From NCBI GenBank assembly GCA_015657675.1, contig JACDQI010000158.1, positions 1 through 64,000 on the forward strand: a DNA stretch of 64,000 nt, in the 5' to 3' direction. Under the pieces are notes generated by a model. It was not told the DNA's origin. It did no database searches and worked only from the letters and a program-made list of their open reading frames with translations. Positions 38,722 to 63,023 of the stretch are shown here, piece after piece. A program made the translations under genes and the position numbers. The stretch comes from Devosia sp. (lineage in GTDB: Bacteria; Pseudomonadota; Alphaproteobacteria; Rhizobiales; Devosiaceae). The first letter of the stretch is position 1; every line of letters starts with the position of its first letter.

Positions 38722-40008
38722 TCAGGCCTCGTCTATGCGCCGGCGGTCCCAGACGACGCGGACACGAGCCTTGCCGCTGCTCGCCGCGTTCTCGAAAGCC
38801 AGCCGCGCGCCGGAGCGTTCGAGCAGAGTCTTGGCGATGAACAGCCCCAGCCCCAGCCCGCCGCCTTCGGTGGCTGAACTGCGGGTCGAGACATACGGGT
38901 CGCCCAGCCGGGTCATCATCTCCAGTGGAAAGCCCGGCCCGTCATCGGTGATGGTGACACTGACCGAGGCCTTGTCCCATGCGCACTCGACCTGCACGTC
39001 GGTGCGGGCGTAGTGCACGGCGTTCTCGATCAGGTTGCCCAACCCATAAAGCAGGCCGACATTGCGGCGCAGCACCGGATCGGGGCCGGCGGCGGTCGAT
39101 TTGGAGATGGTGATGGTCTTGTCGCCCTGCTGGTGCGGCGTCGCCACTTCGGCAACCAGCTCGCTGAGCGTCACCAGCGCGAAGGGATCCCCGCCGTCGG
39201 CGCCCAGATTGCGCAGCTTGACCAGAATGTCGCGGCAACGGGCCGTCTGGCTGATGATGAGCTCGATATCCTCGCGCAGCGGGCCTTCCGGCAGGTCGGT
39301 CCGCATCTCCTTGGCGGCCAAGGCGATCGTGGAGAGCGGGGTGCCCAGTTCATGCGCCGCCGCTGCCGCAAGGCCATCGAGCGAGGCCAGCTGTTCGCGG
39401 CGCGACAGCTGCAGCTCGGTTGCCGCAAGGGCGTCGGCAAGCTGGCGGGATTCGTGCGCAACGCGGTTGGTATAGGCCGCAATGAACACCGTGCCGCAGA
39501 GCAGGCTGACCCAAATACCGATGATGTAGACCCGGTCGAAGACGATCCGCTCGTCCGGATTCCAGGGCAGGCTGAGGTGAAAGATCGAGAGCAGCGACGC
39601 AATGACGATAGCGAGGCCGGCCAGGATGAGGGTCGAGCGCTGCGGCAGCGTCGTGGCCGATACCGAGACCGGCGCGAGCAAGAGCAGCGAGAACGGGTTC
39701 TCCAGCCCGCCGGTGAGCGCCAGCAGCCCGCCAAGCTGCAGGCAGTCATAGGCCAGCTGGATGGTCGACGTGCGGGCCGAGCCGCGGGTCGCCGGGCCGA
39801 CGCGGAACAACAGCCAGAGATTGACCGCTACGGAGAACGCGATCAGCGACAGGCACTCGACCAGCGGCAGGGGAAATCCCAGCCCGAAATCGACGAAAAG
39901 CACGCCCACCAACTGCCCGGCGATGGCCAGCCAGCGCAGCCCGACCAGCGTTTCGAGCCGGAGCGGCCGCCCGCCGCCGGCGGCATAGTCCTGCAGTTCT
40001 GTGGCCAT
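38722..40008 (-). CDS. regB: RegB/PrrB/ActS-type sensor histidine kinase
   Basis: Quinone-site-like GGLENPF, H-box AAAHELGTPLSTIALAAKEM, GGGLGLGLFIAKTLLERSGA. Confidence 0.9.
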   Translation of the reverse strand: MATELQDYAAGGGRPLRLETLVGLRWLAIAGQLVGVLFVDFGLGFPLPLVECLSLIAFSVAVNLWLLFRVGPATRGSARTSTIQLAYDCLQLGGLLALTGGLENPFSLLLLAPVSVSATTLPQRSTLILAGLAIVIASLLSIFHLSLPWNPDERIVFDRVYIIGIWVSLLCGTVFIAAYTNRVAHESRQLADALAATELQLSRREQLASLDGLAAAAAHELGTPLSTIALAAKEMRTDLPEGPLREDIELIISQTARCRDILVKLRNLGADGGDPFALVTLSELVAEVATPHQQGDKTITISKSTAAGPDPVLRRNVGLLYGLGNLIENAVHYARTDVQVECAWDKASVSVTITDDGPGFPLEMMTRLGDPYVSTRSSATEGGGLGLGLFIAKTLLERSGARLAFENAASSGKARVRVVWDRRRIDEA

Positions 40009-46958: not shown

Positions 46959-48194
46959 TCAGCGCATCGCAAGCTGGTCGCGTCGCGCCACGAGGAAGGT
47001 CCTGTCCGGCTCGAACTGGGTAAGGGCAATGGCCCGATCATAGGCGCACCGCGCCCCGGCAGGATTGCTGGTGCGGCTCAGCAGCTCTGCCCGTGCCGCG
47101 TGAAAAGGCTGGTAGCCCTCCAGAGCGGTCTCCAGCCGATCGATTTCGGCCAGGGCAACATCAAGGGCGCCGATCTCGGCCAGTGCCACGGCCCGATTGA
47201 GGCGCACCACATCGGTGGGCTCGAGCTGCAGCAGTTCGTTGTAGAGCAGGGCAATCTGCGGCCAGTCGGCGCTCTCGCCCTCGCAATGGCAGGCGGCGAT
47301 TGCGGCCTTGAGCTGGTAGGGTCCGGTGCTGCGCCGCGCCAGGGCCTGCTCGAGCAACGCTACCCCGGCGACAATCTCGTCCCGCCGCCAGAGCCCACGA
47401 TCCTGATCCCCCAGCGCAACGCTTGCACCGGTATGTGGGTCGAGCCGCGCAAAGCGCCGCGCGTGGCTGATCATCAGCAGCGCCAGGCAACCTTCGATTT
47501 CGGCGTCTGCTGGGTGCAGTCGATTGAGCAGGCGGCAGAGAAAGATCGCTTCTTCGGCCAGGTCCTTGCCGCCGACGGGCCCGGCATTATAGCCGGCCGT
47601 AAAGATCAGGTAGATCACAGAGAGCACCGATTCGAGGCGTTCGGGCCAGATGTCGATATCGGGCACCGCATAGGGAATGCCCGAGGCGGCGATCTTGGCC
47701 TTGGCGCGCGACAGGCGCTGGCCGAGGGTGGTTTCCTGATCGAGGAAGATTTCGGCGATCTGCGCCGTCGAGAGCCCGCCGAGCGTCCGCAGCGTCAGGG
47801 CGACCTGCGACTTCTTTTCAAGCGCTGGGTGGCAGCAGGTAAAAATCAGGCGCAGGCGCTCGTCGGGGATACTCTCGGCGTCGGTTTCGGCGGCTTCTTC
47901 ACCAGAGAGCACGATCAGGCTTTCCTTTGCGCGATCATGGGTCTTGCGGCTGCGGATGCGGTCGAGCGCCTTGCGGTAAGCCACCTGCAGCAACCAACCC
48001 TGGGGGGAGGCCGGAATACCCGAGCGGCTCCAGTGCGTGACGGCGGCCAGCATGGCGTCCTGCAGAACGTCTTCGGCCAGCTGAAAGTCCCGCAAACGCG
48101 AGATGAGGGCGGCAATGAGCCGCCCCCGGTCGTCGCGTGCCAGCGTGTTGAGAGCCTTGGTGACAGCGACGGCGCCGGAGGCGGGGGAAGTCAT
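46959..48194 (-). CDS. RNA polymerase sigma factor, ECF42-like with long C-terminal extension
   Basis: LRDFQLAEDVLQDAMLAAVTHW, GWLLQVAYRKALDRIR, C-terminal FTAGYNAGPVGGKDLAEEAIFLCRLL; next to a DGPF protein. Confidence 0.88.
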   Translation of the reverse strand: MTSPASGAVAVTKALNTLARDDRGRLIAALISRLRDFQLAEDVLQDAMLAAVTHWSRSGIPASPQGWLLQVAYRKALDRIRSRKTHDRAKESLIVLSGEEAAETDAESIPDERLRLIFTCCHPALEKKSQVALTLRTLGGLSTAQIAEIFLDQETTLGQRLSRAKAKIAASGIPYAVPDIDIWPERLESVLSVIYLIFTAGYNAGPVGGKDLAEEAIFLCRLLNRLHPADAEIEGCLALLMISHARRFARLDPHTGASVALGDQDRGLWRRDEIVAGVALLEQALARRSTGPYQLKAAIAACHCEGESADWPQIALLYNELLQLEPTDVVRLNRAVALAEIGALDVALAEIDRLETALEGYQPFHAARAELLSRTSNPAGARCAYDRAIALTQFEPDRTFLVARRDQLAMR

Positions 48195-48211
48195 GGGAGA
48201 ACCCTGTTCAA

Positions 48212-48571
48212 TCAGCCTGCTGGGTTGTAGTCCATCAGCGGCCGGACCTCGATAGTGCCAAAGTTTGCCGAGGGAATATCGGCGGCATAACGAAGCGCTG
48301 CATCGAGGTCGGGGACATCCACGATGTAGTAGCCGCCCAGATGCTCCTTGGTGTCGGCGAACGGGCCATCCATGGTTTCGACCTTGCCGGCCTTGCGGCG
48401 CAGCGACGTTGCCGTCTCGATACCCTTGAGCCCTTCACCGGCGACCAGCACGCCATCGGCATTCATCCGGGTGTTGAGCTCGAAGAAGCCGCCCATCATC
48501 TGCTTGAAGTCTTCGGTGCCATAGGCCGGCTCGCGGGTCGGGTCGTTGTAGATCAACAGCATGTACTTCAT
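48212..48571 (-). CDS. YciI/DGPF domain protein
   Basis: MKYMLLIYNDPT...ETMDGPFADTKEHLGGYYIVDVPDLDAALRYA. Confidence 0.92.
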   Translation of the reverse strand: MKYMLLIYNDPTREPAYGTEDFKQMMGGFFELNTRMNADGVLVAGEGLKGIETATSLRRKAGKVETMDGPFADTKEHLGGYYIVDVPDLDAALRYAADIPSANFGTIEVRPLMDYNPAG

Positions 48572-48605
48572 TTTTCAATCCTTTCAGGGGTTTAGGGGTG
48601 TGAGA

Positions 48606-48998
48606 TCACCAGCCCAGCACGATGCGGGCGAGGGCGACGAGGAGCGAGAGCATGGCGAGAAGGTTGGCGGTGTTGCCGACATAGCGCAGCGGATGGGCAC
48701 CATTGTCGATCTTGAGCCCGAAGGGATGGACGAGGCGACCGATGACAACGAGGGCGCCCGTGACATGCAACCAAAGGCCCGGCGTGCCCTGGGCTTCGGC
48801 CAGCACCATCAGGATCAGGGTGAAGGGCACCCATTCAATGAAATTGCCGTGCTGGCGGATCCGGAGCAGCAGCTGCGGATTGCCGCCATCGCCGATCGAC
48901 TGCTTTAGTTCAGCCCGCACCATGGTGATGCGCATCCAGAGCGGCGCCCAGATCAGGATCAGCGGGAGGGCGTAGAGAGTGGTGATGGAGAGGGTCAT
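48606..48998 (-). CDS. MAPEG family protein
   Basis: NPQLLLRIRQHGNFIEWVPFTLILMVLAEAQGTPGLWLHVTGALVVIGRLVHPFGL. Confidence 0.85.
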   Translation of the reverse strand: MTLSITTLYALPLILIWAPLWMRITMVRAELKQSIGDGGNPQLLLRIRQHGNFIEWVPFTLILMVLAEAQGTPGLWLHVTGALVVIGRLVHPFGLKIDNGAHPLRYVGNTANLLAMLSLLVALARIVLGW

Positions 48999-49146
48999 TT
49001 GACGCAGCGTCCTTTCGTGTTGCTATGACCCAAGGACGCCATCGGTTTGCCGTTCTCGACATGGCCCAAAAGATTTTTTAATTTATTTTTTGGGCGCAAA
49101 GGGCGCAGGCGGGTATGCCACCACCGGCGCTACTACGATATTTATT

Positions 49147-49157
49147 GCTCACTGAGC
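49147..49157. promoter_or_regulatory. Palindromic operator candidate S1: GCTCACTGAGC
   Basis: Exact 5-1-5 palindrome in TTTATTGCTCACTGAGCTATCAG upstream of the TPR gene. Confidence 0.65.
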
Positions 49158-49225
49158 TATCAGAAACTACTCTGAGGTGCGTGCGCCTGTTTGGGCCGTC
49201 GCGATCAGGTGGGGACGGCACGGTG

Positions 49226-50849
49226 ATGATAAAGGTGCGGGCCAGCAGAGCTACTGCCAAGCAAGCACTGGCTGCACTAGACCGCAAACAGCGGGTTGCA
49301 GCTCATGCCGTCGACGGCACCGGCGCACTCGAGCTCAGCCTCTCGCCGATGGCCCGACTGATCCAGCTCTTTGAGAGCAAGATCCGGCATATCCGTTCCA
49401 TCGTGATGAATCTGCTGCTCGTTACGGCTATTGCGGTGGTGGTGCCCATTCTCGCGAGCGAGTTGTTCGGGTCGCGCGTGACCATCGAAAAGATCGATGT
49501 GCCCGAAAGCATGGAGCAGATCGGCCTCTCGGGCACAGTGGTGGCAAACCGGCTTTGGGACGCCTGGTCGGACTTGACCACCAATGTCGCCATCGCGAAG
49601 AAGGCGCAGAATGTCACGCCAAGCTCGCAGCGGATCGAGTTTTCGATTCCTGACTCGGGCATCTCCTTTGAGTCCCTGATCCACCACGTCCGGGCCTTCT
49701 TCGGTCGGTCCGATATCCGGATCGTCGGGGAGATGGTCTGTGAAGCCGAGCCCTGCGCGCGAAAGACCATGGCGCTGCGCTTGCGGGTGCTCGACGGCAA
49801 AGCGCATGTCATTCAGCTCGCGGCCATCGGCAATGAGCCCGAAGAACTGTACTATCGGCGCGCCATGTCTGAGGTGCTGATGGTGACCGATCCGGTGCGC
49901 GGCATCCTGGCGCTCCGCGACAATGATCAGGAACGGGCGATCGCTGAATTGCGCCGGCTGGTCCGCGACAGGCATGCCGATAGCGCCTGGGCGCTCACCT
50001 TTGCGGGAATCATGCTGACCAACCGGGGTGACTTTGCTGCAGCGCGTGCCAGCCTGGATCAGGCCCTTGCACTGCAGCCGCGCCTGTCTATCGCCCTGAT
50101 CAGTCGCGCTGCCGCCGAGGCCGGAGAAGGCGAGCTCGATCGCGCCATGGCGACAATTGAGCAAGCGATCGCCATCGACCCAAAAGATGGACGTGCCTTC
50201 ATGCGGAGGGCCGAGATTGAAGAACGACGGGGTGAGCGCGCAGCGGCGATCAAGAGCTACCGGACTGCCGCGACCTTGCTGCCCAATGCTCCCGAGCCGC
50301 TCTTTGGTCAGGCAACCATGCACTATCGTTCGGGCGCCTATGCGGAGGCGCGTACCGCCTATTCCGAGGCAATCGAGATTGACCCCAATTTTGTAGATGC
50401 CGGACCGGCTGGCGCTGCTTGCCCTCCTGGAGATGAACTTTGCCGAGATGGCCCGCCAGTATGGCGAGGTTGTCCGGCTCCGCCCGGATGACGCGGATGC
50501 CTATGCCCAGCTGGCTTATGCCCTGGGCGCCGAGAACCGACTGCCAGAGGCCGTCGATGCCTATCGCCGGGCCGTGGCACTTGCCCCGCAGCAGGCCAGC
50601 TACGCGCAGGGACTGGGTACAGCGCTGAGCCGGCAGGGGGATCAACGCGCGGCCCTTGAGGCATTCGAAGCTGCCCAGCGCCTCGATCCTGAACTCGACG
50701 GCATCTGGTTCGAGATCGGCGACACGCTGCGGGCCCTCGATCGCCAGGCTGAGGCGCATCAGGCGTTCCAGAAATACCTCACGCTCGAACCCGACGGGAC
50801 CATGGCCGACTTCGCCCGGACCCACCTTGCCCAGGAGGCCTCCCCATGA
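49226..50849 (+). CDS. TPR-repeat membrane protein, apparent frameshift near 50402
   Basis: N-terminal TM IVMNLLLVTAIAVVVPILASELF; TPR-like repeats in two frames (ARASLDQALALQPRLSIALISRAAA...AYSEAIEIDPNFVDA | RLALLALLEMNFAEMARQYGEVVRLRPDDADAYAQLAYALG). Confidence 0.75.
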
Positions 50850-51334
50850 CGTTACTGCCCGCTGCCAAGTCAGCGCTGACCCTGATCGGCGCGATCGGTT
50901 TTTCCGCAACAGCTTTTGCCCAGGGGCTGGATGAGTTGCCGCCCGATGTCGAAGCTGTCGCGGCCGAGTATGTCCAGCAATGCAAAGTCGCGGGCGGTCA
51001 GCCCGATTTCAACCCGCTCGACTATGTGACGCTGGTGTTTTTCGGCAAGGACTGGAGTGCAGGCGGCGCCGAGTCCTACATCGTCGACACGTCGGCACTC
51101 GCCTGCGTCGGAGCCTCGGCAAGGCCAGCTTGCGAGGGGGGCTCGTGTATCGTGGCGGTGCTCAATCCACGCGGCAAAGATCGCTTCGTGGTCGACTTCG
51201 AGGGGCCCGCAGCGAGTTGGCGGCTGCTCGGACCCAACGCGGCGGAGCGTGGCCCCGAAGTCGATATCGAGATCACTGGTGGCGCGGGTCCGCAGCGCTA
51301 CCGCATTACCGGCCGTGGCATGCAGCCTTATTGA
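50846..51334 (+). CDS. Hypothetical secreted protein
   Basis: Signal peptide TLIGAIGFSATAFAQG; 4-nt overlap with the TPR ORF. Confidence 0.65.
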   Translation: MTLLPAAKSALTLIGAIGFSATAFAQGLDELPPDVEAVAAEYVQQCKVAGGQPDFNPLDYVTLVFFGKDWSAGGAESYIVDTSALACVGASARPACEGGSCIVAVLNPRGKDRFVVDFEGPAASWRLLGPNAAERGPEVDIEITGGAGPQRYRITGRGMQPY

Positions 51335-51343
51335 TGGGCTGGC

Positions 51344-51703
51344 CTAGACCAGTGCAACGCGCTGCGGCGATTGCGGGTCATAGGCAAGCGCCACCGCACT
51401 GCCTTCCTTGTATTTTTGCCGCGCTGTGGCGAGCACGTCCTCCCGCTTGAACGAGGAGAGGGCGGCAACTGGAATACGGCTGGCCTGATAGCTTGTCCCG
51501 CCCACCTGGTAGCTGACGGTGAGCATCGGAAAGTAGTCGGTGGCGCCGCTGCTGGTCTCGCGCTCGCCCAATTCGAGCGCGGCAATCGTGCCGGTGACAC
51601 GCGGCCATTGCGTCTTGACTGCATTGCGCCGACGCAGCGCAACCACGACGAGAGCAATGACGCCGACGAGAACCAGGAGCAAGGTGAGGGCTGTCGAGTC
51701 CAT
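51344..51703 (-). CDS. DUF3592 domain-containing protein
   Basis: WPRVTGTIAALELGERET...YFPMLTVSYQVGGTSYQASRI...YKEGSAVALAYDPQSPQRVAL. Confidence 0.8.
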   Translation of the reverse strand: MDSTALTLLLVLVGVIALVVVALRRRNAVKTQWPRVTGTIAALELGERETSSGATDYFPMLTVSYQVGGTSYQASRIPVAALSSFKREDVLATARQKYKEGSAVALAYDPQSPQRVALV

Positions 51704-51727
51704 TGGCGGATCCTTTGAGTTGTGCCG

Positions 51728-52786
51728 CTAGCGGGGCTGCGTGGATGGGGGGCGACTGTCGGGACTGGCTGCGGACGTCCGCTCTGCCGGGGTCACGAGG
51801 CGACGCAGCAGGCTGGCGCCGGGGGCGGCAAGCAACGCGCCACAGGCCAGGGCAGACCCCACCCTGAGCGCAAACACCAGAGCCAGCTCTCCCCCCATCA
51901 CATTGCTGTAGTAGAAGACGTCGAGCACCAGCCAGACGACAAGGAAATCGCCTGTGATGGCTGCGCAGCTTGCCACCATGGCGAGCAGTGGACCGCGATC
52001 GAGCCTGCGCAAGAGCAGCAGGCTGAGTGCCAGCGCGCTGCCGGAGCCCAGCCGCAAATAGAGCGCCGCGAGCTCACCCGAGAGGACCAATTCAATGCCG
52101 CCCGACAGCAGCGAGATCACCAGGGCGGCAATGGGGCTGCGCAGCGCGAGTCCAACGATCAGCGGCACAAGGACGGTAACGCCCACAGTGGCGTGACCAA
52201 TGATAAGCGCATCGTCGGATGCCGCGCGCCAGGCGAATACCGAAAACCAGGAGAGGGTGTTCACGCTCGAGATTATGCTGCCGACCAGCACGCACACCAG
52301 CCAAGCCACCGGGGGTGACTTCGCGGCCGGCGCGGTGACGGGCGTCTGGACCCACTGGGCAACGATCGGCGCTGCGGCTGCGGAGGCGGTGGAGCTGGGC
52401 GGCGGCGGTTGGACTTCACTTTTCTTGATCACTGCGGCGGCAAGCGGAGGAGCGGTCGCCGTCACTATGCCCGTCGCCAGTTCGGCGATCAGCTCGATCG
52501 CCCAGGCAGCGAGTTCGCGCTGCAGACCCAGATCCGTCTCGAGCCGTGATGTCAGCCTCGCCTGCTCGAAGCTCAGTTGATCGCGCGGCGCGGCAACCAA
52601 ATTGGCAAATGCTCCGATGGCGAGGGCCTCGCCAAGCACCCGAATCTCGCGCCGCGCCAGCGGGGCGTGGTCGGCGAGCAAGGCGGCAAACCGCCTGCGG
52701 TCGGACACGATCGCGGGTCCGCCATGCCGCGCCAGGATCAGCCGCGCCGCACTGGCAACGTCACTGCGGGACTGGTCCCTTTCCAT
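51728..52786 (-). CDS. Hypothetical multi-TM protein
   Basis: Soluble N-terminus followed by at least five TM segments; operon position between vWA and DUF3592 genes. Confidence 0.6.
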   Translation of the reverse strand: MERDQSRSDVASAARLILARHGGPAIVSDRRRFAALLADHAPLARREIRVLGEALAIGAFANLVAAPRDQLSFEQARLTSRLETDLGLQRELAAWAIELIAELATGIVTATAPPLAAAVIKKSEVQPPPPSSTASAAAAPIVAQWVQTPVTAPAAKSPPVAWLVCVLVGSIISSVNTLSWFSVFAWRAASDDALIIGHATVGVTVLVPLIVGLALRSPIAALVISLLSGGIELVLSGELAALYLRLGSGSALALSLLLLRRLDRGPLLAMVASCAAITGDFLVVWLVLDVFYYSNVMGGELALVFALRVGSALACGALLAAPGASLLRRLVTPAERTSAASPDSRPPSTQPR

Positions 52787-52790
52787 GCGC

Positions 52791-53492
52791 TTACCAGACC
52801 AGTTCGCCGGTAGCGTCGGCCTGCGAAACGGCCTCGCGCGCGAGTTCGGCGACGGCGCCGCCTTCAATCGTAAGCGGCGACGAGACGGTCTTGACCGGCG
52901 CTGTCGTCGCCCAGCGGATGCGATTGGTCAACTCCTGGGCATTGTGCGCCTGCAGCACTTTGAATTCGGGGTGCGCGATGAAGGCGTCGAGGACATCGAG
53001 GTCGGCATCGCTGCCGATGGCGACGGCGATGCGGACGCTCTTTTTGCCGTAGGGGCTGGCGAGGAGCGCTGCCAGGCCACCGGCAAAATCGTCAGTGGGT
53101 TGGCCATCGGAGACCAGAACGATCACCGGCGGCAATTGCCGGCCGGGCATGTTCTCGGGGTTGAGCACGGAGGCAGCGAGCAGCAGGGCTGTTCCGAGGT
53201 GCGTCTCACCACCAGCGGTCAGATCGCTCCACTGCAGCGCATCGACGGGTACGGGCGTGCCGATATGCCAGTCGGCCCCGTCGCCAAAGCGCAGGACCCG
53301 GACCATGACCTGGGTTTCGGCATTGTCGGCTGCCGCTTCGCGCATGGCCGGGAGGGCTGCGGCCATGGCGTGGTTGAGCGAAGCAATCTTGTCGCCGGAC
53401 ATGGAGCCTGAACAGTCCGCGATCAAAATGAAGTGGAGCTGGCGGCGGGCAATGCCCAGGGCACTCAGTCCGTTGAGGTCGTTGGTCGTCAT
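52791..53492 (-). CDS. TerY-like/YegL-like von Willebrand factor A domain protein
   Basis: MIDAS motif IADCSGSMSGDKIASLNHAM, GGETHLGTAL, LVSDGQPTDD. Confidence 0.85.
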   Translation of the reverse strand: MTTNDLNGLSALGIARRQLHFILIADCSGSMSGDKIASLNHAMAAALPAMREAAADNAETQVMVRVLRFGDGADWHIGTPVPVDALQWSDLTAGGETHLGTALLLAASVLNPENMPGRQLPPVIVLVSDGQPTDDFAGGLAALLASPYGKKSVRIAVAIGSDADLDVLDAFIAHPEFKVLQAHNAQELTNRIRWATTAPVKTVSSPLTIEGGAVAELAREAVSQADATGELVW

Positions 53493-53504
53493 GACACGCT
53501 CCGA

Positions 53505-54950
53505 TCAGCTCTGCTTGGCAATGGTGATGACCAGCGCGTTGTGCAGGATGCGGCCGCCGGGCTGCAGCCGTGCCGATCGTTGCGGCGCGACCACCTCGGA
53601 ACTTCCCGACGGCGAAAACACTGTCCAGTTGCCACTGCCCAGGTTCTTGAGCCCGACGATGCTGGGGTCGGTGGGATGTGTGGTGACCTCGGCGGAAAAG
53701 CCGAGCCCCGATTTCTCAAGTCCGGGGAGACTTGCCAGGGCTGGGCGATCTCCGGGGACCACCGGCAGGCGCCGTCCACCAACCACCAGCACGAGACCGA
53801 CGGGTGATCGCGCTTCGGCTGCTGCTTCGGGCATCGGGGTAGCACGCATCTCTGCCCGGGGCGAGCTGGGGGCTCCGGCCGCGAGCGGGGCCATACCCGG
53901 AGCTGCCGTGCCGACGACGATGGATCCACCGGTCTCTGCGAGGGCCGGGGCGGGTTCGAGCTGCCGCGCCTTGAGCGTCACAGCGACAAAGAACGGTACC
54001 GTGAGGAACGCGGCCAACCACATGCCGTACTCTCCCAGCAGGGCATAGTTGGAGTTCCAGAACCCATGCAGCAGCGAGGCCAGCAGCCAGCCCCCGAGCG
54101 CGATCGGAATCGCCAGGTTTGGACGGCGCAGACCCAGCCCGATGGCGTAGCCAACGATGCCGGCCCAGGCCATGTGTCCGACAATGCCCTGGAGGGAGCG
54201 CGGGATGGACAGTTGCAGGGCATACATCACCCCGGCAAAGGCGTTATTGCCCGTGGCAGCAAGGCCGCTGGCCATGGCCGTATTGTAGTATTGGACAAAG
54301 GTCTCGGCGAGGATAAAGCCGGCGCCCGACGCGACACCCGCGAGCAGACCATCAAGCGGAGTGCGCACGCTGAGCGCATTGAAGATCTGACCCTGCAGGG
54401 TTGGCTTCCGCGACACCGCAAGAAAGCCAAAACCGACCATGATCAGTATCGGGAGTGCCTTGACCAGCTCCTCGCACAGACCCGCGCCAAAGAACATCGA
54501 GACGAACTGGTCGGAGAACGGCGCATTCAACGGCACTTCGCCGCCTGGCAGCAGGGTCCGGAAGATATAGGCGATCGGCATGAAGATCAGCGTCATGCCC
54601 GGCAGCGTGCCGACTGCGATGACCATGAACAGCAGCGGAAACGCAAAGGCCAGCAGAGGCTTGGTCGACCGCGAGTAGGTGTAGATCGCCATGAAGATGG
54701 CAAACAGGATCATGCCACCGACGATGAGCGCATAGGTCCAGTTGCCCTCTAGCGTATTCGTGTTGGCGGTAAACAGCAGGACACAGGCAATTACCGTGAT
54801 CGCAGTGGGCAGGATCAGTTTGCTTTTCCAGAAGCGGATGGAACGCGACTTGAAGGGCAGTACCTCGGAAAGCACCGACGAGCCGTGATCGCGCGGTAGC
54901 GGCGGCATCTCCAGGCTCGCGCGCTTGGCATTTTCCTCAGACATTTCCAT
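53505..54950 (-). CDS. PrsW-like intramembrane metalloprotease with C-terminal FHA-like module
   Basis: FFGAGLCEELVKALPI (EExxK), GAGFILAETFVQYYN, IVGHMAWAGIVGYAIGL, LHGFWNSNYA; soluble C-terminal module DPSIVGLKNLGSGNWTV. Confidence 0.8.
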   Translation of the reverse strand: MEMSEENAKRASLEMPPLPRDHGSSVLSEVLPFKSRSIRFWKSKLILPTAITVIACVLLFTANTNTLEGNWTYALIVGGMILFAIFMAIYTYSRSTKPLLAFAFPLLFMVIAVGTLPGMTLIFMPIAYIFRTLLPGGEVPLNAPFSDQFVSMFFGAGLCEELVKALPILIMVGFGFLAVSRKPTLQGQIFNALSVRTPLDGLLAGVASGAGFILAETFVQYYNTAMASGLAATGNNAFAGVMYALQLSIPRSLQGIVGHMAWAGIVGYAIGLGLRRPNLAIPIALGGWLLASLLHGFWNSNYALLGEYGMWLAAFLTVPFFVAVTLKARQLEPAPALAETGGSIVVGTAAPGMAPLAAGAPSSPRAEMRATPMPEAAAEARSPVGLVLVVGGRRLPVVPGDRPALASLPGLEKSGLGFSAEVTTHPTDPSIVGLKNLGSGNWTVFSPSGSSEVVAPQRSARLQPGGRILHNALVITIAKQS

Positions 54951-56091
54951 TCTCCTCTGGCTTTGAGTCCGGCGCTTTTTGCTCTGTTGGTTCGGGCGGC
55001 GCGGTGGTGGTGGGGGGGTCTGCCGCCGGCGGCGTGGCCGGCGAGGCTGGGGCCTGCTCCATCACCGGGGTCTTGTCGGGCGGATCGGCAGGCCGAACCA
55101 CGCCCGTCGCTGGCTGCGCTGGCGCAAAGGGTGTCCATGGCTGCCAAGGATTGCCCAATGCCAGCACGAGGACGAACAGCAGAGCGGCAACGCCCCAGCC
55201 CATCGACAACAGGAGCGGTGTGCGCGCCGGGGCAGCATGAACCGCAGTTGCCGCTGCACCTTTGGTCGCCCGCAAGCCTGAACCAACGAGGAAGCCAAGG
55301 GCGATATCGTCGCCACTGCCTTGCGCAGTGACATTGGCCAGCCAGGCGCCCAGTCCGTCAGCGACGCTGGCGAGACCGCCATTTGAGATCATGTCGCGAT
55401 AGTGTCGCCCGATCGCCAGAAACTCGGCATCGCCGGCAAACGACTTCGCCAGACCATCGGTGGAGAGCATGACAAAGTTCTGCTCCCCGTCGGGACCCGA
55501 TCGGGGCAGGCTGGCGCTGCGCGCCGAACTGGGCGCATCGAGACGGCAGAGCGAATAGGTCTCTTCGCCAAAAAGGCCTGCATCATCGGCCAGGGCCTTG
55601 CTCGGCGCGTGGACGCTGCTCCCGATCAGGATATCGCCATCCCCGATCTGGAGCACCAGAATGTGCCGCTCGCTGATTGCTGCAGCCACCAGGGTCGCGC
55701 CATAGGGGACAAGAACTTCGTTCAGCAGATCAGGGTCGATACCCTGTGAGTTGGCATGGGCGGTGACGCGGCCAATCCAGTGCTGATGGATGCGCACCAC
55801 GAGTTCGGCTCGCTGGTCCTCGGAGAGATTGCAGGGATCGTCAGCTTCGGATTCCAGCAGGTCGCCGAGGGCTGCCAGTGTGCACTCAACGGCAAATCTG
55901 GACCCCAGATGGCTCAGCGGATGCGCCTTGCCACCATGGCCATCCGAAACCACCAGGGCACAGCGCGGCGAGCCGTGGCTTGCCGGGAGAAAGCCGATGG
56001 CATCCTGATTGCGCATGCCCTTGCGCACATGCGAGGCACCGCGCGTTGTAGCGCCCCAGACCTCCCATGTGTCTGCGGTCGAACGCGTCAT
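54937..56091 (-). CDS. PP2C-family Ser/Thr phosphatase with C-terminal TM and Pro-rich tail (YegK-like)
   Basis: GATTRGASHVRKGMRNQDAI, ALVVSDGHGGKAHPLSHLGSRFAV, LQIGDGDI, MLSTDGLAKSF, GSGDDIALGFLV. Confidence 0.88.
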   Translation of the reverse strand: MTRSTADTWEVWGATTRGASHVRKGMRNQDAIGFLPASHGSPRCALVVSDGHGGKAHPLSHLGSRFAVECTLAALGDLLESEADDPCNLSEDQRAELVVRIHQHWIGRVTAHANSQGIDPDLLNEVLVPYGATLVAAAISERHILVLQIGDGDILIGSSVHAPSKALADDAGLFGEETYSLCRLDAPSSARSASLPRSGPDGEQNFVMLSTDGLAKSFAGDAEFLAIGRHYRDMISNGGLASVADGLGAWLANVTAQGSGDDIALGFLVGSGLRATKGAAATAVHAAPARTPLLLSMGWGVAALLFVLVLALGNPWQPWTPFAPAQPATGVVRPADPPDKTPVMEQAPASPATPPAADPPTTTAPPEPTEQKAPDSKPEENGNV

Positions 56092-57445
56092 CGACCGGCC
56101 TGCAATTTCCAGGCGAAATCGATGACCCCGTTGCGTCGGCCGAACTGCACTTTGGTACCGGCTACCAGTCGCATGGCCTTGCCGGGTGGGACGGTCGCCG
56201 TCTGGCCATCCGCAAAGCTGGCAGTCCAGGGGCGGTCATCGAGATTGCGGAGGCCCGCAATGGCGGGGTCGGCCGGGTGCGGCTCTACCTGCCCAAGAGC
56301 GACGCTGTCGTCAAAGCGCCTGGCCGGATCAAGGTGGTGAGCGAAAAGCTGGGTCCCGGCATGGAGCGCCAGACGGTCGCGGCCGAGGTTGAGCAAGAGC
56401 GGCAGGCCAACCTCCCCGCCGCACGAGATACAGGCGAAGCGCTCGGCTGTCGGATCACCGTCATCGGCATCGCAGGCGTATTCGAGTCCGCAGCCCGGAC
56501 AGACGACAAGACTGTCCCGCAGTCGCGCAAAGGCGTCCCGCCATTCTGTTTCGAGCACGCGCGCGCCGGGCGCTGCGCTCAGTCCGGCAGTAAATGCGCG
56601 TTCAAAGAGGGCCCGGACGGACGCCGAGAGCCTGCGCCAGCGCATCACGATGGGCTCATGCATACCGGCCAGCGGGCCGTTCGAGTCGTCCTGCGGGTGA
56701 AACAGGAAACGCGGGTTGAGGCCGTAGAGCTGGTACTCGGCGTCGCCATCGAGGATGGCAATCGCCGCCTCAGCCTTGCCATCCAGCGGATGCCACGCCA
56801 TCAGGATGTAGAACAGCATCACCGCCATTGAGTAGAGATCGGTCTGGGTCGAGGGCAGCGCTTCGCGACGCACGATCTCCGGTGCCATGAACTTGCGCGT
56901 GCCATAGACCGCCGCCGCGCGCCGTTCACGTCTGTGTTATCATTGTCGCAGATGGCGATGTCGCCGGTGGCAGGATCAAGAAAGATATTGCCGAAGTTGA
57001 TGTCCTGGTAACAAAGCCCGCGGGCATGCAGATGCAGGAAGCTGTCGGCGATCCGCAGGCAGGCCGTCGCGCCGGCCCGCAAGGATGGGGTCATGCGCGC
57101 CGGCGGCGCAGCGATGATATCCTTCATGCCGCGAAAGCGCTTTTCGCGCAGCGGCATCACATAGCCCAGTTCGCTTCGTCCATTGGCCATAGCCAGGTCG
57201 ATCGGCCAGAGATAGCGCTCGTCGGGTCGCCCCGCGGCCATGGCTTGACGCAGGCGCACGATGATCCGTTGGTCATTGGCCAGCGTGTGAGCATGATACA
57301 TCTTGTAGGCCAGCCGCCGGCCGTCGAAATCAGCCAGATAGACACTGCCTTGGCCGCCGGCACCCAGAAAGGCCTCAACTCGCCCGTGCAGGCCACTCTG
57401 CGTCAGGCTGAGGGCGTGGCCCGGCCGCAACGGCTCGGCGCTCAT
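56088..57445 (-). CDS. Atypical protein kinase with Zn-ribbon and FHA-like C-terminal module (YegI-like), apparent 1-bp deletion near 56925
   Basis: GAGGQGSVYLADFDGRRLAYKMYH, HARGLCYQDINFGNIF, CDNDNTDVNG (DFG replaced by DND) | FMAPEIVRREALPSTQTDLYSMAVMLFYILMAWHPLDG, CPGCGLEYACD...FACISCGG. Confidence 0.85.
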
Positions 57446-57505
57446 GGCCTTCGCCTTGAGATGCGGTGATCGACAGGATCAGACAAGAGCGGCGCTCCAT
57501 TAAAG

Positions 57506-57516
57506 GCTCAGTGAGC
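57506..57516. promoter_or_regulatory. Palindromic operator candidate S2: GCTCAGTGAGC (followed by ATATAAT)
   Basis: Exact palindrome in the divergent intergenic region of the kinase and small-secreted genes. Confidence 0.7.
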
Positions 57517-57549
57517 ATATAATCACCGCAATTCGTGTCAATCTGTATT

Positions 57550-57560
57550 GCTCAGTGAGC
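57550..57560. promoter_or_regulatory. Palindromic operator candidate S3: GCTCAGTGAGC (TATTGCTCAGTGAGCATTA)
   Basis: Exact palindrome 44 bp centre-to-centre from S2. Confidence 0.7.
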
Positions 57561-57643
57561 ATTAATGACTAGATTGCTCCCGGCGCCGCGACCGCATCCG
57601 GCTCGATCTGCCGCTCCGGGAGAGCGGCTGGCATGGAGGACTA

Positions 57644-58006
57644 ATGTTTCGACCACTCGGATTGGCCATTTTTGCAGCGGCAGCCATGGCTGCGGCCCCC
57701 GCGTCGGCCAAATCCATCGACGAGGGCACCTACACCTGCTTGTACTATATCGGCGACACCCTGCTGAGCATGGGCGATATCGAGATCACCGGGGATAGCT
57801 ATCGCGGTCCGGCCTACGACGGAAAGTATGGCCCTTCTTACGACTACGAGTTGACCGATGACGGATACATCGTCTGGCGCGGACCGCTTGGCGGTCTCAC
57901 CAGCGACGGCAACCAGGTCGGCACTTCCACGTTCGAAGACGGCCGTATTGCGATCCAGATCCTGCCGGCCGATGGCCGCCCCTGGGTGATCGGCTGCGAT
58001 CGCTGA
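57644..58006 (+). CDS. Small secreted two-cysteine protein A
   Basis: Signal peptide ...AAAAMAAAPASAKS; DEGTYTCLYY...DIEITGDSYRG...WRGPLGGL...PWVIGCDR. Confidence 0.7.
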   Translation: MFRPLGLAIFAAAAMAAAPASAKSIDEGTYTCLYYIGDTLLSMGDIEITGDSYRGPAYDGKYGPSYDYELTDDGYIVWRGPLGGLTSDGNQVGTSTFEDGRIAIQILPADGRPWVIGCDR

Positions 58007-58051
58007 ACGCATTTGGGCCGGGAGCGAAACCGCTCCCGGCGCTCACACTGC

Positions 58052-58393
58052 CTACTGTCCGCAGGACATGAGCAGGCCGTTGCTGTTGTTCCAGTTGAGC
58101 AGTCGATCCTTGAGAAACCCTGTTACCTCAAAGTCGTCCTTGAGCGGTCCCGAACCGGGCCAAAGGTAGGACCCGTCATAGTCCAGGGAGCCGCCGCCAT
58201 TGCTGGCATCGTCCGTGGGCTCCCAGGCTGCATTGGTCGACTGGAACTGGTAGCTGTTGCCCGTGATGGTCACCAGACCGATCGGAATATCTCCCGTGAT
58301 GGCGCACTTCCAGACGCCGTCGGCCGACTGCGCCAGGACGGGAGATGCTGCAGACAGGGCGAGCAAGAACGTGAACACCTTGAGCGGCTTCAT
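58052..58393 (-). CDS. Small secreted two-cysteine protein B (similar to A)
   Basis: Signal peptide MKPLKVFTFLLALSAASPVLAQ; DGVWKCAITGD...LVTITGNSYQF...GSGPLKDD...GLLMSCGQ. Confidence 0.7.
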   Translation of the reverse strand: MKPLKVFTFLLALSAASPVLAQSADGVWKCAITGDIPIGLVTITGNSYQFQSTNAAWEPTDDASNGGGSLDYDGSYLWPGSGPLKDDFEVTGFLKDRLLNWNNSNGLLMSCGQ

Positions 58394-58411
58394 CGGTCAC
58401 CTCAATTAATT

Positions 58412-58422
58412 GCTCACTGAGC
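58412..58422. promoter_or_regulatory. Palindromic operator candidate S4: GCTCACTGAGC (AATTGCTCACTGAGCATA)
   Basis: Exact palindrome 18 bp upstream of secreted protein B. Confidence 0.7.
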
Positions 58423-58480
58423 ATACATCATATTGTGCGGCACGGAAGCGACATTTGTGATTGGCCCGAAACTAGTCGGG

Positions 58481-58491
58481 GCTCACTGAGC
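58481..58491. promoter_or_regulatory. Palindromic operator candidate S5: GCTCACTGAGC
   Basis: Exact palindrome upstream of the histidine kinase. Confidence 0.65.
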
Positions 58492-58560
58492 AAGCTAAGT
58501 TCCCCTCCGGGGATGCAGGAGCCGATTGGGGGCACGTCCCGAAGCGCTTGAGGGGGCGGA

Positions 58561-60933
58561 ATGACAGCGGGCATGCAGAGCAGAGTGGGCGAGCAGGCAA
58601 AGCTGCCGACGCTCCCGGTATCGACCGACATCATCGAACTCGCGCGGTCCAATGCGCGGACCCGCATCGTGTTCCTGGCCTTCGTTCTGTTTGCGGCTTT
58701 GGCTGGTCTTGTGGTGACGCGGCTGGGCGTTGAACGGTCAACCGGCTCGATCTTTCTGGGCGCTTCCGCCGACCACTATCTCGATACCACGGGTAAGGCG
58801 ACGTTCTCCGACATCACAGGACCTCTGGCGTCGGACTTCACGCTCAGCAATGGCACCATGGTCAACCGGGGCACCACCGGTGGCGTCAATGCCATGCTCT
58901 GGTTGCGCATCAAGCTCCCCGACCTTTCCGGCGATCCATCGCGCCAGTGGATCTTGTCATACCAGGAGACGCGTGCACGGCAGGTGGCACTCTTTGTCGG
59001 TGCGGGCGGCCCTGACGGCACACCCACTCAACTCTACACCCAAGGCACGGTGGACCCCGAAACCGGCCGGGCGGATCGGTTTGCCCAGTTCTCCCTGCCA
59101 GCGTCTGCTCTTTCCGGTCAGGAACTGCACCTGCGGGTCTATACTCTCTCGTCCAAGCGCGCCCTGCTCTGGCTCGAGCCCGCCAATGTCTTTACCGCCA
59201 ACGAAATCACCCAGACGCTGGTGTTTGGCGGGATCTTCGGGGTCATGGTGGCCTTGTTCTTTTATCTGACCTCGATCGGCGTCGTACTGCGCGATCGCAC
59301 CTTCGGCACCCTTGCCGCCATGGTGCTCGTCTATTGCAGCTATGTCGCATCTGATCGTGCCTTCATCGAAACAATCGTGCTGCCTGGCAACCTGATGCTG
59401 TCGCGCATGATGTCGTATGTCTCGACGTTCCTCTGCTACGCCACCTTCCTCGCGTTTTTGCTGCGCTACCTCCGCGTCCGCCAGTATGCGCCGCGCCTTG
59501 CCATCGCCGTGTACGTCGTGACGGCACTCTGCGTGGTCTTTGCCCTGGTGGGCGGCGTTGAGGTGGCCTTCAACGTGGTTGTGACGCGACCCTATTCGGC
59601 AGCGTTCGGCATTTTTGCGCTCGTGAGCGGACTGATTGCGGCACTCTGGGTCTTGCGCTTCGATCTTGGGCGGGGCCTAGGCTATTTCATCTGCTGGTCG
59701 CCGACCATCTCGTCCACAATCTCGCGGCTCTTGCTCGACAGCAATCCCGCCGGAAGTGGTGGGCTGATCTCGATCTATGGGGTTTATGGCGCCGTTACCT
59801 TCTCGCTGCTCAGCTTTGCAATCGTCCTTTCAATCGACATCCAGCAGCGTGAATCCCGCATGCGCAGGGTCGCCGAATCCAATGAGCGCCGATTTCAGGG
59901 GTTTGCATCTTCTGCCTCCGATGGCTTCTGGGAAACCGACGCCGAAGGCCGCCTGACCTTGCTGACCGGGAGCTTCTCAGCCTGGTCGAAAGACGCGGCC
60001 AGCGCCACCCTGCCATCAATCCTGCAGCAACAGGCGAGTGATGCAGGCCAAGACAACATTGAGGTCGTCAGGCGTCAGCTGGCGGGCAGCGCGCCGTTCC
60101 GAGGTCTCGAGATCGAGCTTGCTGCAGGTAGCCGAACGGTCGAGCTCAGCGGCGAACCCTTCGTACAGTCGGATGGCTCGCGTGGCTGGCGTGGCATTCT
60201 GACCGATGTCACCCAACGCAACGCGCGCCGCCAGCGTGAAGCGCGCGAACAGCGGATCGCTGCTGTCGGCCAATTGACCAGCAGTGTGGCTCATGAGGTC
60301 AACAACCTTCTGCATCCGGTGGTCAACTTGTCACGCCGTCTGCGAGACCGGTTGGCGGCCGATGACGAGGGGCGCAACTACCTGCAGGTGATCATGGATT
60401 CGAGCAGCAGGGCCGCAACGATCCTGTCGCGCATTTTGCGCAGCGTGCATCCGCAGACCAGCGTCGCCGTCTCGCTTCCGCTCGCGGACGCCTGCGAAAG
60501 GGTCTGCGAGGAAATTGCAGTCCTGACATCCGGCTCGGTCGACCTGCAGACCCGCATAGCCTGCGATGGCGGCCCGCTGGTCCAGGAGAGCGAGTTGTTC
60601 CAGGTCATCGCCAACCTGGTGTCCAACGCCATCGCGGCGACCGGCAATAACGGCCATGTGCAGATTCTGCTTATCCGCACCGAAGACGGGAGCTGCGAAC
60701 TCTCGGTGACGGACGATGGCCCCGGCATTCCCGAAGCGGACCTGGCCCGCATCCAGACGCCGTTCTTCACCACCAAGCCGATAGGTGAGGGAACTGGGCT
60801 CGGCCTATCGATCGTGCACGATATCGTTCACGCTTGGGGAGCGGACCTGCGCGTCACCTCGAGGCCGAACATCGGTACGGTGTTCACCATTGTGCTGCGT
60901 GATCCGGCCGCTGCAGCCGCTGTCGTTGCCTGA
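58561..60933 (+). CDS. 7TMR-DISM-type membrane sensor histidine kinase with PAS-like domain
   Basis: Extracytoplasmic LWLRIKLPDLSGDPSRQWILSYQETRARQVALF, about seven TM segments, H-box SSVAHEVNNLLHPVVNLSRRLR, N-box NLVSNAIAATG, G-boxes DDGPGIPEADL and GTGLGLSIVHDIV. Confidence 0.85.
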   Translation: MTAGMQSRVGEQAKLPTLPVSTDIIELARSNARTRIVFLAFVLFAALAGLVVTRLGVERSTGSIFLGASADHYLDTTGKATFSDITGPLASDFTLSNGTMVNRGTTGGVNAMLWLRIKLPDLSGDPSRQWILSYQETRARQVALFVGAGGPDGTPTQLYTQGTVDPETGRADRFAQFSLPASALSGQELHLRVYTLSSKRALLWLEPANVFTANEITQTLVFGGIFGVMVALFFYLTSIGVVLRDRTFGTLAAMVLVYCSYVASDRAFIETIVLPGNLMLSRMMSYVSTFLCYATFLAFLLRYLRVRQYAPRLAIAVYVVTALCVVFALVGGVEVAFNVVVTRPYSAAFGIFALVSGLIAALWVLRFDLGRGLGYFICWSPTISSTISRLLLDSNPAGSGGLISIYGVYGAVTFSLLSFAIVLSIDIQQRESRMRRVAESNERRFQGFASSASDGFWETDAEGRLTLLTGSFSAWSKDAASATLPSILQQQASDAGQDNIEVVRRQLAGSAPFRGLEIELAAGSRTVELSGEPFVQSDGSRGWRGILTDVTQRNARRQREAREQRIAAVGQLTSSVAHEVNNLLHPVVNLSRRLRDRLAADDEGRNYLQVIMDSSSRAATILSRILRSVHPQTSVAVSLPLADACERVCEEIAVLTSGSVDLQTRIACDGGPLVQESELFQVIANLVSNAIAATGNNGHVQILLIRTEDGSCELSVTDDGPGIPEADLARIQTPFFTTKPIGEGTGLGLSIVHDIVHAWGADLRVTSRPNIGTVFTIVLRDPAAAAAVVA

Positions 60934-60972
60934 TGCGTGTTGCCGAACTCCATCCGCTCCCTTAACTGTATA

Positions 60973-60983
60973 GCTCAGTGAGC
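60973..60983. promoter_or_regulatory. Palindromic operator candidate S6: GCTCAGTGAGC (TATAGCTCAGTGAGCAATATA)
   Basis: Exact palindrome between the HK gene and the downstream membrane protein gene. Confidence 0.7.
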
Positions 60984-60994
60984 AATATACATGA

Positions 60995-61486
60995 GTGCCG
61001 ATGCAGCCGGTCATTGTGTTCCGCAACCGCATGTCGCAATTCAACTGGGCGCTGATCGCCCTTGGCGTCGCTGCGGCCGTTCCTCTCCTGCTTGCCGACG
61101 GAGCTGACCTGGCGGCGGTGCTGGCCTTCGCAGCCGCAAGCCTGCTGGCATTGGCCGCATTTGCCGTCGGGCTGATCGCTTGGCTGGGACGGCGGCAGGT
61201 GGCCGAACTCACGCTGATTGGCGATATGGCGCATATTGAAATGCTGTCGGCCATCGGTCGCGGCCGCGTTCACAAGGTGCCTATAGCGCAACTGACCGAC
61301 TGGCGTTGGCAGCCCGCGTGGACCCGAAAGCTCGGCGGCACCGGTGCCCGGACCCTGAGCTTTGCACTCGATGGCACGTGCCTCACCATGCCACTTTTTG
61401 GAGCCAGCCTGTTCAACCCCGAAGCATTGCGGCCAATTTGTCCCCAAACCATCGCCGCATTGATGGACTCTGTCGCAGAAAAATGA
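60995..61486 (+). CDS. Hypothetical membrane protein (two TM helices)
   Basis: NWALIALGVAAAVPLLLADG and AAVLAFAAASLLALAAFAVGLIAWLG; exact start uncertain. Confidence 0.55.
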   Translation: MPMQPVIVFRNRMSQFNWALIALGVAAAVPLLLADGADLAAVLAFAAASLLALAAFAVGLIAWLGRRQVAELTLIGDMAHIEMLSAIGRGRVHKVPIAQLTDWRWQPAWTRKLGGTGARTLSFALDGTCLTMPLFGASLFNPEALRPICPQTIAALMDSVAEK

Positions 61487-61543
61487 GCATTTTGGCCCCT
61501 GCCAGCAGGCTATGGGGTGCCTGGCTGTGTTTGGGGGGTATCG

Positions 61544-61930
61544 ATGGATGTGCTCAGTCGCCAGAAGGTTCTTGTGGCCGATGACAATGCCGCCAGCCGA
61601 CTGTCGCTGCGTCTTGAGTTCGAGGATTCAGGCTTTGAGGTCATCGAAGCGGCCGACGGCGACATCGCCCTCTCGATCCTCGCCACACAGTCCTTCCACG
61701 CCGTCGTGACCGACATCTGGATGCCCGGGCGAGACGGTGTCGAGATCGTCAAGGTCATCGCCGCACGGCAGCCCGACGCGGTGATTGTCGCCATCACCGG
61801 CGGCGGGCCCGGCATGAGCATTGCGTCCGCCACGACCCTTGCCAAAGTCTGGGGCGCGACCCTGGTCTACATCAAGCCGTTCGACGTGCGCGATCTGGTG
61901 GCCGACCTGCAGTCTCGCCTAGGGCGATAG
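61544..61930 (+). CDS. Stand-alone receiver-domain response regulator
   Basis: KVLVADDNAASRLSLRLEFEDSGFEVIEAADG, VVTDIWMPGRDGVEIV, YIKPFDVRDLV; no output domain. Confidence 0.88.
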   Translation: MDVLSRQKVLVADDNAASRLSLRLEFEDSGFEVIEAADGDIALSILATQSFHAVVTDIWMPGRDGVEIVKVIAARQPDAVIVAITGGGPGMSIASATTLAKVWGATLVYIKPFDVRDLVADLQSRLGR

Positions 61931-61937
61931 ACCTTGC

Positions 61938-62363
61938 CTACTGGATATCATGCATGCCGCGCAGGATACGCTCCAGCGCCACGGCCAGAACGGCGCGCTC
62001 TTCCCGGGGCAAGGCGCCCAGGATGGTGGCGATCTCGATCAGGGGATCGGACTGCATGAGCGCATGGCCAGCTGGTGTCAGTTCCAGAATCTCGGCTCGA
62101 CCCTTGGGCTGAGTCGCTGCCTTCGTCACGAGACCCTTGATGATCAGTGTTCGGACCGTGCGGCTGACCGGACCATTTGCCATGCCCTGGAAGCGGGCAA
62201 GTTCGCTGGACGTACGTTTTTCCGTCGGCGCCTTGGCGAGGTAGCGCAGCGCGACCCACTGCGCTGGAAACAGGTCCATCGCGTAGCCGCGCGAATGCAG
62301 CAGCCGAGACGTCAGGTCCAGCAGCTCTGCCAGAGCATCGGCTTGCACTTTGGTGGGCTCCAT
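61938..62363 (-). CDS. MarR family transcriptional regulator
   Basis: AQWVALRYLAKAPTEKRTSSELARFQGMANGPVSRTVRTLIIKGLVTKAATQPKGRAEILELTPAGHAL. Confidence 0.88.
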   Translation of the reverse strand: MEPTKVQADALAELLDLTSRLLHSRGYAMDLFPAQWVALRYLAKAPTEKRTSSELARFQGMANGPVSRTVRTLIIKGLVTKAATQPKGRAEILELTPAGHALMQSDPLIEIATILGALPREERAVLAVALERILRGMHDIQ

Positions 62364-62490
62364 AAGTCAATAGATAGCCCATAACGTCCCACCATTCGAT
62401 TGAGCAAATGGACAACCCGCAAGAATCTGCTGGATCAGGCTCGGGAGGTTAGGGCGTCGCCAGGTTGGGTCATCTTTGGAACGCCCGAGG

Positions 62491-63023
62491 CTACGCGCCA
62501 AACTCGCCTTCGAGAACGCCCATAATCAGGTCGTCCTGCCATTGGCCGTCCAGGCAGACCGTCTCGCGTTCCCGCCCCTCGATCTGGAACCCACATTTCC
62601 GATAGCAGTGGATGGCCCGCGCGTTTGTCGCCAGCACGCGTACCGCAACCCGATGCAGGTGTAGATCTGTGAAGGCAAAGCGGAGGACTGCTGAGACGGC
62701 CTCTGTTCCAAAGCCCACCCCGAGATCATCAGCGCGCAATAGCCCGATGGCGAGCGAGGCGTGGCGTTCGGCGAGATTTACGCGATCGAGCCGCACCGAA
62801 CCCAGAAGTCGCGTGCTTTCGATGACCCACGCGTAGGGATGGTTCACCAGCGATTGCACCCATTGTTCAGCGCTTTGCCGGGTGAAGGGCGGAACGCTTT
62901 TCGGGTCGATGCCGTAGAGCCGGATGTTCTCATCCGGCTCCGGGCCGATGTCGAGGCGCGGACCAATGTCGGCGTGCGACGCCGGCCGCAGGGTGAGCCG
63001 ATCGGTGTGCAGAACCGGCGGCA

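Follow-up and report, generated by a model that had tools for sequence, protein, structure and literature searches.

A recurrent palindrome in Devosia sp. as the predicted operator of a MarR-family protein encoded beside a histidine kinase and a receiver-only response regulator

The palindrome GCTCA[C/G]TGAGC occurs in six exact copies within an island of 12 kb in Devosia sp., and its distribution supports the prediction that it represents the operator of one regulator. The strongest candidate for the binding protein is a MarR-family winged-helix protein. Its gene occupies the right end of the island (61938-62363, minus strand), close to those of a histidine kinase (HK) and a receiver-only response regulator (REC). 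We consider it likely that the whole model holds, in which the MarR protein would occupy the operator, repress its targets and be controlled by HK and REC in an envelope regulon. The window investigated here is a stretch of 64,000 nucleotides (contig JACDQI010000158.1, positions 1 to 64,000), to which all coordinates refer unless stated otherwise.

Distribution of the palindrome in the island and the genome

An exact scan of the whole window recovered all six copies listed in the initial annotation, and each of them is located between genes. Three copies have a C in the center (GCTCACTGAGC; 49147-49157, 58412-58422, 58481-58491) and three a G (GCTCAGTGAGC; 57506-57516, 57550-57560, 60973-60983). 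The remaining ~52 kb of the window contain no further exact match, as had been noticed before, and only a single one-mismatch copy at 39159. The chance expectation for the motif in the window is 0.06 versus six observed copies, a number that none of 100 dinucleotide shuffles attained. The AT-rich flanks described initially are present in five of the six copies, but the left side of the copy at 58481 is GC-rich.

Five of the six putative operators are distributed over three divergent regions, and the sixth occupies an internal position. The copy at 49147 is flanked by a MAPEG/YCII/sigma-like operon on one side and the gene for a TPR protein (49226-50849, plus strand) on the other. The copies at 57506 and 57550 separate a long operon on the minus strand from sec1, which encodes a small secreted protein (57644-58006, plus strand); the former copy is located on the operon side and the latter on the sec1 side. 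This operon comprises the genes of a Hanks-type protein kinase (56088-57445), a PP2C phosphatase (54937-56091), a PrsW-family membrane protease (53505-54950), a vWA-domain protein (52791-53492; the last three assigned by Pfam), a membrane protein without family match (51728-52786) and finally a DUF3592 protein (51344-51703). The copies at 58412, on the sec2 side, and 58481, on the HK side, separate sec2 (58052-58393, minus strand), whose small secreted product shows 35% identity to that of sec1, from the conserved HK gene (58561-60933, plus strand) with its 7TMR-DISM extracellular and 7TM sensor, HisKA and HATPase domains (Pfam). The sixth copy is found within the HK operon ahead of p60995, a gene for a small membrane protein (61001-61486, plus strand; ATG at 61001), which is followed by the conserved REC gene (61517-61930, plus strand; Pfam) and the convergent marR.

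Several peculiarities of the island genes were observed in passing. The sigma-like regulator/YCII/MAPEG operon (46959-48998) faces the operator at 49147 from the opposite side, ~148 bp away, and might be a further target. Apparent frameshifts affect two island genes: the TPR gene is divided over two overlapping frames (50397-50491), and the protein kinase gene contains a one-base frameshift near 56890 (within 56819-56940) directly before GTRKFMAPE in the activation segment, which reflects an error of the assembly or else a broken kinase. The PrsW protein and the kinase have C-terminal ends (53505-53900 and 56088-56400, respectively) that are mutually related according to BLAST and resemble a small, beta-rich, FHA-like domain.

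The assembly (3.94 Mb, 317 contigs) harbors nine exact copies of the palindrome, compared with a simple chance expectation of ~2.8 per genome. Six of the nine are found within one stretch of 12.8 kb, for which the binomial probability is ~1e-13. The other three are located inside genes (ruvB, a bamA-like and a DUF599-like one), have no AT flanks and were rejected as chance-like. If AT flanks are required, all exact copies fall in the island, and four more sites, two of them intergenic, appear when one mismatch is allowed in addition. The motif is accordingly not scattered genome-wide in coding DNA, which the initial annotation had named beforehand as the finding that would speak against an operator.

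The proposal of a single regulon that ties together the 12-kb phosphosignalling island is supported with respect to one regulon, but the regulon reaches beyond the island, as documented by the two intergenic, AT-flanked one-mismatch copies. One of them is positioned 41 bp ahead of a third sec paralogue and the other ahead of a gene for a secreted autotransporter-like outer-membrane protein. A fourth paralogue of sec1 and sec2 (contig L149, 1297-1632) has no operator, hence the sec family is not exclusively controlled via this operator. Since the assembly is 85% complete, some operator targets have possibly been missed. Comparable target sets were found in other genomes: homologues of p60995 and the DUF3592 gene share one operator in G258, an arrangement that recurs in G294, a single operator serves p60995, HK and REC in G823, and genes for TPR or Sel1-repeat proteins and for small secreted or outer-membrane proteins recur as targets. 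The theme of the regulon is the cell envelope.

Conservation of the operator and the kinase module

Our comparative analysis showed that this HK, usually accompanied by REC and MarR, is present at 15 other loci in 11 genomes (two each in G099, G258, G277 and G323, one each in G294, G310, G843, G879, G824 and G823, and one on the Microvirga sp. VF16 plasmid NZ_CP069355.1), which represent about four lineages and are thus not fully independent. At each of the 15 loci, the HK unit is preceded by an exact palindrome, a copy with one mismatch or a variant that is symmetric. The conservation upstream of orthologues, which had been suggested as a check of the operator, is therefore found in other genomes and, together with the restricted distribution in the own genome, supports the binding site of one regulator. 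In one of the two G323 modules the site is located 721 bp upstream, ahead of a small secreted gene, one of the G099 kinases occurs without REC or MarR, and the HK-REC operon of G823 is preceded by the operator and has no adjacent marR.

In a held-out test that excluded the window, GCTCA-1-TGAGC ranked first of 9,216 possible palindromes with matches in 14 of 21 upstream regions, and the runner-up reached four. Exact copies are located upstream of marR in seven of ten regions tested outside the window. A palindromic operator is hence typical of both the regulated promoters and the regulator's own one; marR of the window itself is preceded, at a distance of ~40 bp, by no more than a half-site (TTTGCTCA on the minus strand, 62395-62410), which represents at best a doubtful weak operator. 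The extended consensus of 34 sites, approximately T-n-n-A-W-W-GCTCA-S-TGAGC-W-W-T-n-n-A, is symmetric, as expected for a dimer that contacts DNA beyond the core. Of the 36 exact copies in genomes with the module, 27 lie between genes, and the AT content of the flanks averages 0.69; the corresponding values for module-less relatives are three of 29 and 0.42. The other exact copies on the Microvirga plasmid and in module-less relatives are mostly coding and GC-flanked and were not accepted as targets. In genus g15 of family f1 a small conserved membrane protein is encoded between the operator and marR (L084, 12206-12454; L165, 6272-6517).

The sensor half of HK has relatives in only seven of the 397 genomes of the order, including the own genome. 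A profile search of the family added four further HK carriers, two of them diverged, and a class-level search for more distant kinases retrieved three weak matches, all without module or motif. The kinase is absent from all 18 congeners searched, which indicates that the island has probably been acquired or repeatedly lost.

The candidate regulator and its mode of action

The winged-helix domain of the MarR protein is documented by Pfam MarR_2 with 35.2 bits (cut-off 27). Profile matches include solved SlyA and MarR chains, with SlyA as the nearest solved structure; the score against the SlyA equivalog is 27.7 bits, compared with an NCBIfam cut-off of 120. REC comprises 137 amino acids with Response_reg as its sole Pfam domain. 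It has no DNA-binding output domain, so that DNA binding within the HK-REC-MarR trio is left to MarR, which is also the only DNA-binding protein that recurs with the sites across families, Microvirga included. The strongest pointer to MarR as the binder is its recognition helix. In the segment aligned to the recognition-helix region of SlyA, the MarR proteins of the window, Microvirga and family f19 share GPV[ST]RTVRTL and have GCTCA half-sites, and those of g15 have GPT[AT]RTVRTL with GCTCA, mixed and perfect GATCA-S-TGATC sites. The diverged MarR of G824 has SAVARTVRTL, and its operon is preceded by the perfect palindrome ATGTTCAGTGAACAT (GTTCA-S-TGAAC). This pattern suggests that operator and recognition helix covary, but it reflects about two events and is suggestive rather than conclusive.

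Two other explanations of the sites were weighed against binding by the neighboring MarR. They might belong to a different DNA-binding protein, with its gene at another place in the genome, and MarR might regulate something else, which would explain the incomplete site ahead of marR in the window and the operator of G823 next to an HK-REC pair without marR. It would also agree with the situation in rhizobia, where MarR proteins with the same helix and no kinase partner lack such sites both in their vicinity and in the other intergenic DNA; the copies in rhizobial genomes with close MarR homologues are chance-like, with the two conserved ones coding, and were discounted. A foreign binder leaves both the exclusive recurrence of MarR with the sites across families, Microvirga included, and the covariation of its helix with the operator without an explanation, and we regard it as improbable. 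Even less plausible, to the point of being hardly credible, is the assumption that the copies represent a dispersed repeat or a terminator or attenuator hairpin. They are indeed short palindromes in intergenic DNA, but arms of five bp around a single base do not allow a hairpin with a normal loop, and none of the terminator-like matches coincides with a copy. Moreover, the copies have nothing in common except the core and the AT flanks, and their half-sites change symmetrically in other lineages. The sequence evidence thus argues strongly for MarR as the protein that binds the operator.

With respect to its mode of action, the operators are located 17 bp ahead of p60995, 18 bp ahead of the sec2 start codon, 22 and 31 bp ahead of DUF3592 and p60995 homologues, and several others 41-46 bp ahead of start codons. 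The operator at 57506 overlaps the -10-like TATGCT of the arrangement TTGACA-16-TATGCT on the minus strand, the only promoter-like match in the region 48990-62500. A general sigma-70 scan retrieved no more promoter matches than shuffled sequences; therefore, this overlap is the only one used here, and with caution. Promoter scoring around all sites was set aside due to the bias introduced by their AT flanks. The distances of 17-46 bp from several start codons make repression by promoter blocking likely, and we infer with moderate confidence that MarR acts as a repressor.

The MarR protein might also bind the sites and mainly activate, or a small ligand instead of HK and REC might set its activity, in which case the kinase would be a mere target that acts on other proteins. 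MarR proteins are usually ligand-controlled, and several HK and marR sites are located 100-430 bp upstream of the start codons. A precedent for activation is the MarR-like RtrC of Caulobacter, which represses if its site overlaps the -10/-35 elements and activates from upstream positions (PMC9648850). However, operators at 17-46 bp from several start codons are too near for ordinary activation, and the tight conservation of HK and REC with MarR favors a functional link. We consider this scenario unlikely, although less so than that of a foreign binder.

In the repression model, a MarR dimer would bind a site of ~17 bp, AWWGCTCA-S-TGAGCWWT, on or just past the core promoter and thereby repress the HK-p60995-REC operon, the genes of the two small secreted proteins, the TPR gene and the kinase/PP2C/PrsW/vWA/DUF3592 operon as well as at least two unlinked envelope genes. 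MarR itself is probably controlled by the 7TM sensor kinase and the receiver-only REC. Phosphorylated REC would alter the grip of MarR on DNA, which would result in a feedback-controlled envelope-signalling regulon. The action of REC on MarR is the faintest step, as it is hinted at by the conserved gene order, and may involve direct contact or an indirect route.

Significance and comparison with known systems

MarR proteins are usually pictured as one-component small-molecule sensors and, to our knowledge, many response regulators that consist of a receiver only have no assigned output. The HK-REC-MarR module is conserved and has an operator of its own, which suggests a two-component route to DNA via MarR. 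It offers a compact test system of one kinase, one receiver, one repressor and one 17-bp site, and it brings a Ser/Thr kinase/PP2C operon under the regulator that also governs a His-Asp pair. The MarR family and the two-component kinase are of known kinds, and the module plus its operator appears to represent a new variation on them. In agreement with the initial annotation, which did not recognize the motif as a known alphaproteobacterial operator, a literature search for the motif letters found primers and unrelated work and no operator report; subscription journals and regulon databases were outside its scope. The most far-reaching version of our proposal is a previously undescribed architecture, in which the signal of HK and a receiver-only REC would reach DNA by way of a phospho-switched MarR repressor encoded with them. 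The operator and the recognition helix of this MarR would co-evolve, and its envelope regulon would include a eukaryote-like kinase/phosphatase operon. We put it forward tentatively and lean slightly towards doubt.

The kinase operon of the island resembles the TerY-P-type triad in the combination of vWA, PP2C and protein kinase genes in one operon, although its Pkinase match is weak and frameshifted. It differs from the triad in that no ter genes were seen in the island and that the PrsW protease and DUF3592 are added. The curated defence models of PADLOC yielded no family for the vWA or PP2C protein and only weak PD-T4-6 matches for the kinase.

The regulator shares with MarR/SlyA-family repressors the winged-helix MarR domain, the AT-flanked palindromic operator and, in relatives, the frequent copy ahead of its own gene. 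It differs from them in the operator core GCTCA-S-TGAGC and in the fixed position of marR next to the HK and REC genes, and it resembles SlyA only weakly over the full length. In Caulobacter crescentus, RtrC is likewise a MarR-like factor that acts downstream of two-component proteins on a pseudo-palindrome, but it has been described as a hypothetical protein whose MarR likeness is based on the predicted structure only, and it has not been reported in an HK-REC-MarR trio (PMC9648850); this comparison refers to the description and not to the letters of the motif. Orthodox two-component systems are similar with respect to adjacent genes for a membrane histidine kinase and a receiver protein that control nearby promoters. 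Their response regulator binds DNA itself, whereas the receiver of the current module lacks an output domain and the separate MarR protein is proposed to take over DNA binding.
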